From contig NZ_CP070326.1 of the NCBI RefSeq assembly GCF_016917755.1, positions 8,432,001 to 8,496,000 on the forward strand: a stretch of 64,000 bases of DNA. Reading direction: 5' to 3'. Below are positions 32,800 through 35,021 of this stretch, one piece after another. The notes beneath the pieces are model-generated. The model saw only the letters and a program-made list of their open reading frames with translations, ran no database searches and was not told the DNA's origin. How positions within the stretch are numbered: the first letter of the stretch is position 1; each line of letters starts with the position of its first letter. The position numbers and the translations under genes were made by a program. The stretch comes from Streptomyces noursei. Lineage in GTDB: Bacteria; Actinomycetota; Actinomycetes; Streptomycetales; Streptomycetaceae.

Positions 32800-33036
32800 G
32801 TGCGCCGCATCGCTCCCCTCCTCGCCACCGCGCTGGCCGCCGCCTCCCTCGCCGCCGCCAGCTGCACCTCCGCCCCCGACGCCGGCCCGAGCCCCGGCGG
32901 CTCGGCCCGACGCACGGTCGCACCGGGCCGGCCCTCGCCGGTACTGATGCCATGGCCGGTGACGGCGGAAGGTCCACCGGGCGCACTGGCCGACCGGCGC
33001 ACGATGTCCCGATGGGAGCATGTGGCGATCGGCTGA
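32800..33036 (+). CDS. Small predicted lipoprotein
   Basis: The product is 78 aa from GTG 32800 (GGTGAG upstream). The N-terminus MRRIAPLLATALAAASLAAASC forms a short signal peptide (cited in parts) ending in AAASC, an imperfect lipobox with Ala at -3. The rest is Pro/Ser-rich with a WEHV end. There is no known family. The downstream cupin gene begins 63 bp later, so they may be co-transcribed. Confidence 0.45.
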   Translation: MRRIAPLLATALAAASLAAASCTSAPDAGPSPGGSARRTVAPGRPSPVLMPWPVTAEGPPGALADRRTMSRWEHVAIG

Positions 33037-33098: not shown

Positions 33099-33617
33099 AT
33101 GCCGCCACACGACCCGACGCCCCACGCCGCGTCCCCCACCCCCGCGCCCCGCGGCTCCGCCGCCCCCGGCGACGCATTCCATCCCCACCTCCGCGACCCC
33201 GACCCCACCGCCGAGGACGACCGCCGGCCCCTGCGGACCCGCCTGCACCACATCCGCGCCGACGCGCTGGACGGTGACACCGCACAGACCGGCGGAATGC
33301 GACGCTTCGCCGCGATCAGCGGCCAACGGGTCGGCTCGGAACGCCTCTGGATGGGCCAGACCCACGTCGCCCCCGCGACCGCGTCCGCCAACCACCACCA
33401 CGGCGCCGCGGAAACCGCGATCTACGTCGTCAAGGGACACCCGGAATTCGTCTTCGCCGACGACACCCGAGAGGAGGTCCGCCTCCGGACCGCCCCCGGC
33501 GACTACATCTTCGTCCCGCCCTACGTGCCCCACCGCGAGGAAAATCCCCACCCCGACGAGGAGGCCGTGGTGGTGATCGCCCGCAGCACGCAGGAGGCGA
33601 TCGTCGTGAACCTTTGA
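33099..33617 (+). CDS. Cupin-domain protein
   Basis: The product is 172 aa with GAGAGGGAAAGG before ATG 33099. The cupin metal-binding motif is visible (ANHHHGAAETAIYVVKG, with three consecutive His), and the second strand motif is GDYIFVPPYVPHREENP. The first 45 residues are Pro-rich and probably disordered. It is a single-domain cupin. Catalytic type (dioxygenase, isomerase or binding) is not assignable. It is the last gene before the repeat-rich gap. Confidence 0.85.
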   Translation: MPPHDPTPHAASPTPAPRGSAAPGDAFHPHLRDPDPTAEDDRRPLRTRLHHIRADALDGDTAQTGGMRRFAAISGQRVGSERLWMGQTHVAPATASANHHHGAAETAIYVVKGHPEFVFADDTREEVRLRTAPGDYIFVPPYVPHREENPHPDEEAVVVIARSTQEAIVVNL

Positions 33618-33649
33618 CGTGGGCCTCCCACGTTGTCGGCTCCCCCGCC

Positions 33650-33721
33650 GTGTCCGCCTGACGGCGGGTTGTTTCGTCCGCTGCGTGTCCGCCTGACGGC
33701 GGTTGTTTCGTTGTCCGCTGC
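33650..33721 (+). repeat. Tandem 35/37-bp direct repeat with mini-hairpins
   Basis: Two abutting copies, 33650-33684 and 33685-33721, share GTGTCCGCCTGACGGCGG and the ending TCCGCTGC and differ by short indels (a G lost and TG gained in the second copy). Each contains the hairpin CCGCC-TGAC-GGCGG. A third degenerate copy is at 34095-34110 on the opposite strand, overlapping the stop codon of the SDR gene. Confidence 0.85.
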
Positions 33722-33832
33722 GCGGGGCTGTCGGGTGCGGTGACGGGCCTGCGGGGGTGGTGTGCAGGACTGCTGCGCTTTACGTCCTGCACACCACCCC
33801 CTCCGGCCCGTCCCCTCCCGTGAGTGGGTGGG
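33715..33832 (+). repeat. Hairpin unit 1 (structured element, conserved loop)
   Basis: An 18-bp perfect stem (33753-33770 with 33784-33801) closes the loop TGCTGCGCTTTAC at 33771-33783, and an outer 8-bp stem (33742-33749 with 33805-33812) extends it. The flanks 33715-33741 and 33813-33824 match unit 2. It may be a structured RNA, a hairpin recognised by a transposase, or a terminator-like element. Confidence 0.85.
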
Positions 33833-33931
33833 AAATACAGGTGCGTCCACCCTCACGCCGGTGGTCTGCTCACGGTCACCACTCCACAACGAACCCGCAG
33901 GCGACCACCGGCACACACCCACCCACCGTTT

Positions 33932-34054
33932 CCATGACCACCCACGGGAGGGGACGGGTCTGCGGGGCAGGGGTTGACCGGACGTAAAGCGCAGCAGTCC
34001 GGACAACCCCTGCCCCGCAGACCCGTCACCGCACCCAACAGCCCCGCGCAGCGG
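33932..34054 (-). repeat. Hairpin unit 2, inverted relative to unit 1
   Basis: Arms 33953-33976 and 34004-34027 pair over 24 bp, continued by 33978-33983 with 33997-34002. One A-A mismatch lies between. The loop at 33984-33996 is the exact complement of the unit 1 loop. The inner stem is unrelated in sequence to that of unit 1 but still pairs. The flank 34028-34054 matches 33715-33741 at 26 of 27 positions. Confidence 0.85.
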
Positions 34055-34100
34055 ACCCGCCCCGCGCAGCGGCACGCAGCGGACCCGCAACACCCCACCG

Positions 34101-35021
34101 TCAGGCGGACAGCCGCGAGCCATACACCGGCCACGCCGGCTCCGCCGCCGCGAGGAGTTCGCGGGTGGCCGCTCCCACGTCGGACGGGGCCCAACGGGCC
34201 CCTCGGTCGGTGCTGGGCCCCGGTCGCCAGCCCTCCATGACGGTGATGCGGCCGCCCTCGGCCTCGAAGACCCGGCCGGTGACGCCGGTGCTGTCGGCGG
34301 AGGACAGCCAGACGACCAGTGGGGAGACGTTCTCGGGGGCCATGGCGTCGAAGACGCCGTCCGTGGGGGTTGCCATCGTCTCGGCGAAGGTCTGCTCGGT
34401 CATCCGGGTGCGGGCCGCCGGGGCGAGGGCGTTGACCTGGACGCCGTAGCGGCCCAGTTCGGCGGCGGCGACGAGGGTCAGGCCGAGGACGCCGGCCTTG
34501 GCGGCGGAGTAGTTGCCCTGGCCGACGCTGCCCAGCAGTCCGGCGCCGGAGCTGGTGTTGACGACCCGGGCGTCGGGCGTCCGCCCGGCCTTGGCCTCGG
34601 CCCGCCAGTGTGCGGCGGCGTGCTTGAGGGGCAGGAAGTGGCCTTTGAGGTGGACCCGCATCACCGCGTCCCAGTCGTCCTCGTCGAGGTTGACCAGCAT
34701 CCGGTCGCGCAGGAAGCCGGCGTTGTTCACCAGGGCGTCCAGGCGGCCGAAGGCGTCCAGGGCGGTGGCGACGAGGGAGCGGGCACCGTCGTCGGTGGTG
34801 ATGTCGTCGGTGTGTGCGACGGCCCGGCCGCCGCGCGCCCGGATCTCCTCGACGACCTGTTGGGCGGGGCCGGTGGAGGCGCCGGCGCCGTCGGCCGCCA
34901 CCCCGAGGTCGTTGACCACGACGGCCGCTCCCTCGGCGGCCAGGGCGAGGGCGTGGGCGCGGCCCAGGCCCCGGCCGGCCCCGGTGACGGCGGCGACGCG
35001 TCCGGTGCAGATTCCGGTCAT
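34101..35021 (-). CDS. SDR oxidoreductase of the steroid C/D-ring cluster (HSD17B4-like)
   Basis: The product is 306 aa. Rossmann motif TGAGRGLG, NNAG (in ALVNNAGFLRD), catalytic Ser in NTSSGAG and YxxxK (NYSAAKAG) are all present. The AEGAAVVVNDLGVAADGAG segment and extra C-terminal 50 aa resemble 17beta-HSD type 4-like enzymes and the first SDR of the mycobacterial KstR2 cluster (Rv3548c position). It ends inside a copy of the 35-bp repeat. It is 1 nt downstream of the next SDR, so the two are translationally coupled. Confidence 0.85.
   Translation of the reverse strand: MTGICTGRVAAVTGAGRGLGRAHALALAAEGAAVVVNDLGVAADGAGASTGPAQQVVEEIRARGGRAVAHTDDITTDDGARSLVATALDAFGRLDALVNNAGFLRDRMLVNLDEDDWDAVMRVHLKGHFLPLKHAAAHWRAEAKAGRTPDARVVNTSSGAGLLGSVGQGNYSAAKAGVLGLTLVAAAELGRYGVQVNALAPAARTRMTEQTFAETMATPTDGVFDAMAPENVSPLVVWLSSADSTGVTGRVFEAEGGRITVMEGWRPGPSTDRGARWAPSDVGAATRELLAAAEPAWPVYGSRLSA

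Follow-up and report, generated by a model that had tools for sequence, protein, structure and literature searches.

A dispersed family of composite palindromes in Streptomyces with a near-constant loop on freely changing stems

The two hairpins found in the window (the whole 64,000-nucleotide stretch of Streptomyces noursei DNA analysed here) are the halves of one composite palindrome that is dispersed over its own genome. The family to which it belongs consists of dispersed composite palindromes and occurs almost only in part of the genus Streptomyces. The reading that we favour, and to which we would give an even chance, is that of a REP/REPIN-like palindrome without RAYT, whose stems would be maintained by arm copying and gene conversion, whose loop would be read by a putative factor and which would stop transcription from both sides.

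In the window, the two long hairpins lie head to head in the gap between two convergent genes, which encode a cupin protein and a short-chain dehydrogenase. The features of the locus are the following.

33099-33617, + strand: cupin protein gene (Pfam Cupin_2, 6e-09; searched part 33099-33614), its 3' end facing the element; the frame in the ORF list starts at 32952
33627-33652, + strand: outermost small hairpin module, CCCACGTTGTCGG..CCCGCCGTG; 7 copies of the pattern in the own genome
33654-33667, + strand: small hairpin CCGCCTGACGGCGG, with a second copy at 33689-33702 (direct repeat and inverted repeat)
33713-33763, + strand: left outer arm of the composite element, 90% complementary to 34006-34056 over 51 nt
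33715-33725: mini-hairpin CCGCTGCGCGG in the left outer arm
33739-33815, + strand: unit 1 long hairpin, an inverted repeat with RNA and DNA folds on both strands
33767-33787, + strand: unit 1 core, GGAC-TGCTGCGCTTTAC-GTCC, with the loop at 33771-33783
33816-33949, no strand: spacer between the hairpins, partly palindromic (GCCGGTGGTC..GACCACCGGC) and poorly conserved between species
33950-34030, - strand: unit 2 long hairpin, in the opposite orientation to unit 1 and with a different stem; 34-nt arms 94% complementary
33980-34000, - strand: unit 2 core, with the loop at 33984-33996
34006-34056, - strand: right outer arm of the composite element, complementary to the left arm
34044-34054 and 34062-34072: mini-hairpins CCGCTGCGCGG near the right outer arm
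34101-35021, - strand: short-chain dehydrogenase gene (Pfam adh_short, 4.2e-42), its 3' end facing the element

The preliminary description of this DNA had reported two inverted hairpins with an identical loop, and the window sequence confirms both at their places. Unit 1 has 18 bp around a 13-nt loop, followed by a TGC/TCC internal loop and an outer stem, while the arm of unit 2 is paired throughout apart from a single A-A mismatch; the 18-bp stem, the mismatch and the C-G to T-A change in the outer stem GACGGG(C/T)C are all present as first described. The 21-nt cores of the two units are 100% complementary to each other. Both units have the loop TGCTGCGCTTTAC with its GGAC/GTCC closing, and the remaining stem sequence differs. 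The fold z-scores range from -6.15 to -9.97 over both strands, and 0/200 shuffles were equally stable. The element goes beyond the earlier account in being larger and multicopy: small hairpins accompany the two long ones from about 33627 and are mirrored to about 34111, and several copies of the CCCACGTTGTCGG..CCCGCCGTG module adjoin units or unit fragments elsewhere in the genome.

Two smaller features of the structure can be recorded here. The flanking mini-hairpins (33654-33667, 33689-33702, 33715-33725, 34044-34054 and 34062-34072) have complementary strands with GNA or GNNA loops (CCGCGCAGCGG, CCGCCGTCAGGCGG). Many units have a recurrent internal loop of 3x3 (TGC or TCC opposite TCC) some 18 bp from the terminal loop; its site in unit 1 is at window positions 33747-33758 and 33797-33808, and in other units this site is paired (GGA/TCC or TGC/GCA).

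The 21-nt core has 27 exact copies in the own genome, and three more with one or two mismatches, against none for the reversed control; 48 blastn matches to unit 1 were also found there. The cores lie at 2.22-8.47 Mb of 9.86 Mb, none of them at a chromosome end. Because the stem types of unit 1 and unit 2 recur at other loci of this genome, a recent local duplication of the two units is ruled out. The preliminary description had allowed for a single duplication of this kind with no further covariation, and for a loop missing from the copies of other genomes; instead, there is much further covariation, and other genomes keep the loop.

Compared with a collection of 84,980 species, the exact core matched 46 stretches, all titled Streptomyces. 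The pattern GACTGCTKCGCTTTACGTC, which takes T or G at one loop position, was found in 15/392 sampled genomes of the genus (1 to 50 copies, controls 0). It was also found in 15/391 genomes of the order (at most 65 copies each), every one of them a member of the same genus, in a sample that overlaps the genus sample and holds only 23 genomes from outside the genus; 23 different carriers result in all. All genome samples are draws, and the class-wide sampling is thin. Eight further carriers of the order sample (G425, G464, G509, G510, G559, G567, G580 and G632) have 3-65 copies, and the core regions of one or two loci of each (L339-L350) were inspected.

The covariance-model search suggested in the preliminary description was run on the 392 genus genomes with a model of 42 units, chosen among the units in hand, and it found further copies with covariation. 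At E <= 1e-6 it matched 16 genomes, namely the 15 pattern carriers and G035, whose match is a hairpin with a different loop; for each genome at most the best 11 are among the matches listed. The element had no match in IMG/VR or in the phage records. Among the plasmid records it matched only a 2.8-Mb non-mobilizable replicon of Streptomyces sp. BHT-5-2, and short-hairpin queries against plasmids and phages returned one Streptomyces replicon, one weak phage match and nothing else. A phage or plasmid origin of the element thus finds no support. The Rfam search that had also been suggested gave no match at gathering score in the whole window, and none in the two loci outside the genus described below (L351 and L352); a scan of the window with a lax E-value returned sub-threshold matches only, nearly all to microRNA models. 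Membership of a known Rfam family is therefore rejected. No report of this repeat was found in the open-licence papers searched.

The preliminary description had proposed that structure and loop are kept while the stem sequence changes, and both the covariation and the ortholog comparison bear this out. Across the 35-bp helix of the 42 units, 23/35 pairs are changed on both sides, in 216 cells, against a shuffle mean of 67.5 and 11-51 for slid structures. These units have 1332 cells, of which 1237 are Watson-Crick, 4 G.T, 8 A.C and 83 other; many of the 83 belong to the recurrent internal loop (TCC/TCC or TGC/TCC) or lie further out. In 130 unique stems, the 20 pairs outside GGAC/GTCC are Watson-Crick in 2291/2600 cells. 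The inner 11 pairs of the same stems are Watson-Crick in 1402/1430 cells (G.T 3, A.C 11, other 14). Perfect inner stems account for 54 of 77 unique ones. A difference at a single position separates 69 pairs of inner stems, which are not mutually independent; 40 of these differences affect both arms and leave the position paired, while 29 affect one arm; for 26 of the 40 two-armed differences no G.U intermediate is possible. Since the inner stems are nearly all Watson-Crick, the pairing seems to be kept in DNA, with arm restored from arm, and not as a wobble-tolerant RNA. According to the available part of PMC3733652, GT pairs are frequent in GTAG REPs and are taken as a hint of transcription.

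The loop behaves differently from the stems. The exact core is present in 192/201 units (104 T, 88 G), a share that is too high because the query that retrieved most loci contained the loop; the 27/30 of the own genome is the fairer figure. A search of 1.14 Mb of the same loci for any perfect arm of at least 16 gave 195 palindromes, of which 164 have the exact loop and 8 a near variant of it. Other loops were found among the covariance-model matches of carriers with few exact cores. G194 has eight distinct hairpins with 14-nt loops TGCTG(A/T/G)CGCTTTAC (one further changed) and one with the usual loop (loci L386-L396), and G263 has five with TGCTTCGCTTGAC and two usual ones (loci L397-L402); in G303 the loop is kept and the closing stem is GGGC/GCCC in three hairpins. 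In one of these two variant-bearing carriers, G194 and G263, the change is confined to the loop apex. The loop variants, too, are common to several loci within G194 and within G263, and because of them the loop is to be called strongly conserved, not invariant. Such a near-constant loop on freely changing arms suggests that something in the cell recognises the loop.

On the complementary strand the loop reads GTAAA-GCGMAGC-A, with the position that differs between most genomes at the centre of a GNA. The G194 loops read GC-GNCA-GC on that strand, and both loop changes fall on the same apex. The oligonucleotide d(GCGAAGC) has high stability, and the loop complement may resemble a stretch of 16S rRNA. 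A GNA mini-hairpin in the loop complement is only a suggestion, because the folding program does not form it.

To compare copies between and within genomes we used 200 units from a set of 201 with distinct context, in which up to 4 core mismatches were allowed. In 42 groups of orthologous loci, defined by matches of both flanks in different genomes, a unit is retained. Over 159 orthologous pairs, the mean difference is 0.251 edits per site in the stems and 0.0058 in the loops (12 loop sites, K omitted). For same-genome non-orthologues the stem value is 0.270, and for other pairs 0.332. Near-identical stems, however, were found in 249/1834 same-genome pairs vs 10/159 orthologous and 193/17,906 other pairs. 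The nearest stem lies in the same genome for 127.7/177 units of nine genomes, while 200 label shuffles gave a mean of 20.6 and a maximum of 32. For 97/116 units, some paralogue in the same genome is nearer than any orthologue, a count that favours paralogues because they are more numerous. Furthermore, stem types are common to several loci within one genome. Any conversion among copies would be only partial, since orthologous stems are on average slightly closer than same-genome ones.

The units are found at gene ends. With a purpose-written codon-usage gene caller, 69 gaps with units are convergent, 56 tandem and 1 divergent, vs 10, 72 and 52 of the unit-free gaps longer than 150 bp in the same loci; none of the genes predicted by this caller contains a unit. 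The corresponding Fisher values, 1.2e-17 for convergent and 1.6e-16 for divergent gaps, are too small, because each orthologous gap was counted on its own and the background loci had themselves been selected for their units. These counts supersede those of a cruder caller, which had placed 121 units as 60 convergent, 38 tandem, 1 divergent, 9 in frame and 13 undetermined. Adjacent cores within 320 bp are in +- orientation in 71 of 74 cases (++ 2, -+ 1, the latter in L343); an earlier count on fewer loci gave 67 +-, 2 ++ and 0 -+. Lone units in tandem gaps are sense in 18 cases and antisense in 11.

At the window locus, the element, or the part of it that fits before the contig end, is found beside the dehydrogenase gene in G311, G175 and G265. 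In S. albospinus (G191) the same two genes, cupin and dehydrogenase, adjoin with no element between them, and in ten more carriers (G137, G390, G294, G348, G194, G064, G263, G086, G303 and G060) the fetched dehydrogenase flank has no core. A gain in the ancestor of the own genome (G000), G175, G311 and G265, or losses elsewhere, would fit, because these four group together in the dehydrogenase tree (37 rows, one gene; support 99/94). Ten carriers also group together in this tree (97/92), nine of them with 10-50 exact cores and G137 with one, while G194, G263, G086, G303 and G060, with 1-2 exact cores each, fall outside; as the tree requires three label changes, a single carrier clade is not demonstrated. 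No target-site duplication is readable at the window locus.

The only hairpins of this kind outside the genus came from the class sample of 394 genomes, 354 of them from outside the genus. The pattern was found in the own genome, the only match among the 40 genus genomes drawn, and once each in G703 (family f33) and G755 (family f27).

L351:1490-1536 and L352:1466-1550, sense of the upstream gene: single hairpins outside the genus

Both have the same 13-nt loop on unrelated stems, in which 7 (G703) and 5 (G755) perfect pairs directly adjoin the loop and additional pairs follow further out. From its translation, we take the frame just upstream to be infB in G703 and rplA in G755. By rough arithmetic, about 0.03 chance hits are expected. 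By contrast, 32 IMG/VR stretches match a 15-mer of the loop; none of these matches is within a hairpin and at most 2 consecutive pairs are formed, so the loop as a chance viral sequence match was discarded. The G703 and G755 hairpins are the best sign that the loop itself may be recognised and may be older than the Streptomyces family.

Their sense placement also lends weight to a possible role in RNA. Under such a reading, which we regard as possible if rather doubtful, the units would be sense-strand 3'-end hairpins, acting as terminator or exonuclease shield, with a loop UGCUKCGCUUUAC bound by a putative RNA-binding protein, and the Streptomyces copies would have been amplified from a 3' element that is old in actinobacteria. 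The 3' location of the units, the strong RNA folds and the same-loop hairpins in gene sense after the presumed infB and rplA frames are consistent with it. A structured RNA would, however, be expected to combine compensatory changes with G.U pairs, and here the former are many while the latter amount to 3 of 1430 inner cells; likewise, lone units in tandem gaps are sense only 18 times against 11, and no Rfam family reaches the cut-off. The structured RNA family put forward in the preliminary description is hence weakened by the near absence of G.U pairs and of Rfam matches, and favoured by the sense-strand hairpins outside the genus. Among its three candidates, a putative factor that binds the hairpin or cruciform is still the best. 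If the RNA reading were true, the units would represent a 3'-end element of actinobacteria not described before.

The two hairpins outside the genus also fit a less probable version of loop recognition in DNA, which we consider unlikely. An old actinobacterial system would include a putative factor that reads the loop of a DNA-extruded hairpin on any stem, and the family would be a transposase-free homing palindrome. A break or stall would drive repair from sister copies, leading to conversion, matched arms and spread through part of Streptomyces, while the lone copies downstream of infB and rplA would represent the resident state from which the family arose.

The REP/REPIN-like palindrome without RAYT that we favour could work as follows. 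The hairpin would form in DNA, as a cruciform or in single strand at the replication fork, and template switching would copy a mutation of one arm to the other, so that the arms stay paired and no G.U intermediate is needed. Where the palindrome is cleaved or stalls the fork, repair would draw on other copies by ectopic gene conversion. SbcCD and RecA are the textbook candidates for such palindrome cleavage and stall repair. Conversion of this type would spread genome-specific stems and loop variants, and occasionally add or remove copies, while selection would hold the loop, as a candidate sequence- or shape-specific factor reads it. Stopping transcription from both sides is probably an additional role, and the element may be tolerated or kept at gene ends because it would do so. 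In the carriers studied we found no cognate protein, target-site duplication or transposition intermediate. If this reading is true, the family offers a natural case in which one short loop is held and DNA pairing, not stem sequence, is conserved, at tens of loci and in many species. Two old questions would become testable, namely by what means long palindromes persist and convert in bacteria and what maintains REP-like families that have no transposase, and the 21-nt core could serve as bait for a new hairpin-binding factor.

The units could also be plain strong bidirectional terminators spread by recombination, with a loop that has no role and is kept only by conversion among copies; this we hold to be improbable. 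A stable stem-loop downstream of a gene is indeed present, as in intrinsic terminators, and convergent gaps are favoured. The available text of PMC8269248 describes many structured 3' ends lacking a U tract in Streptomyces clavuligerus, strong GC stem-loops downstream of genes like those seen here, and that of PMC8355165 proposes hairpin clusters as terminators. One loop common to many loci is, however, not described in that part of PMC8269248. Conversion alone would homogenise stem and loop alike, but orthologous stems differ about 40 times more than loops, and in two other families this loop is found on stems of unrelated sequence.

It is very unlikely that the family is a true REP/REPIN mobilised by a RAYT (Y1/HUH) transposase. 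As in the REPINs and the GTAG-tagged REPs with RAYT covered by the available parts of PMC3116915 and PMC3733652, the elements are dispersed and intergenic, form head-to-head inverted pairs, show compensatory stem changes and prefer tandem and convergent gaps. But in our family the loop is conserved and the stem is free, and stems of about 30 bp, much longer than in REPINs, carry a 13-nt loop instead of the short ones given in those parts of the two papers. G.T pairs are also nearly absent here, no unpaired GTAG tag at the foot of the hairpins caught the eye, and Y1_Tnp was not found in 13/15 carriers. The CGTC-tagged REPs in the available part of PMC3733652 are likewise palindromic repeats without an associated transposase gene, but they are described there from other phyla, with stems of 8-9 bp, loops of 4-5 nt and a CGTC tag that is unpaired. 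At E <= 0.001, Y1_Tnp is present in 2/15 carriers vs 3/15 of the non-carriers tested, and the carriers that have 49 and 50 copies gave no match. Being rare in carriers and not found in the high-copy ones, it argues against a RAYT-dependent REP. The earlier proposal of a REP-like element with a transposase holds as regards dispersal, 3' location and head-to-head pairing, and is not supported as regards Y1 mobilisation. The own genome has a single Y1_Tnp gene, of the IS200 type (L118:1501-1863, G000:C1:5795360-5795722).

The least probable alternative is a site for a telomere-type protein, by analogy with Tap-bound telomere palindromes: it would draw on the complementary strand GTAAA-GCGMAGC-A with its GNA loop, on the mini-hairpins CCGCGCAGCGG and on a most variable position that is the middle of the GNA and becomes GNNA in G194, but most sampled genus genomes have no element, though the telomere system is common in Streptomyces, the copies are internal and the folding program does not form the mini-hairpin. 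In the available part of PMC4513846, sheared G-A pairs close the GCA loops of telomere palindromes II and III, to which Tap binds; such GNA loops would be shared with our family, but the telomere palindromes described there lie only at chromosome ends and differ in sequence.

Finally, the own genome holds traces of incomplete elements. In L108, L109, L111 and L112 the long hairpin is missing or cut. A pair of units spaced by 1.2 kb (3402760/3403958) was considered as the possible capture of a gene; inspected by eye, the stretch shows a site that misses the long hairpin, and gene capture was set aside. Two half-elements, L033 (2232838) and L113 (2248842-2249013), lie about 16 kb apart and have in common, at the inner edge of each and oppositely oriented, a stretch of about 30 bases; an element may have been split or copied here by a rearrangement.
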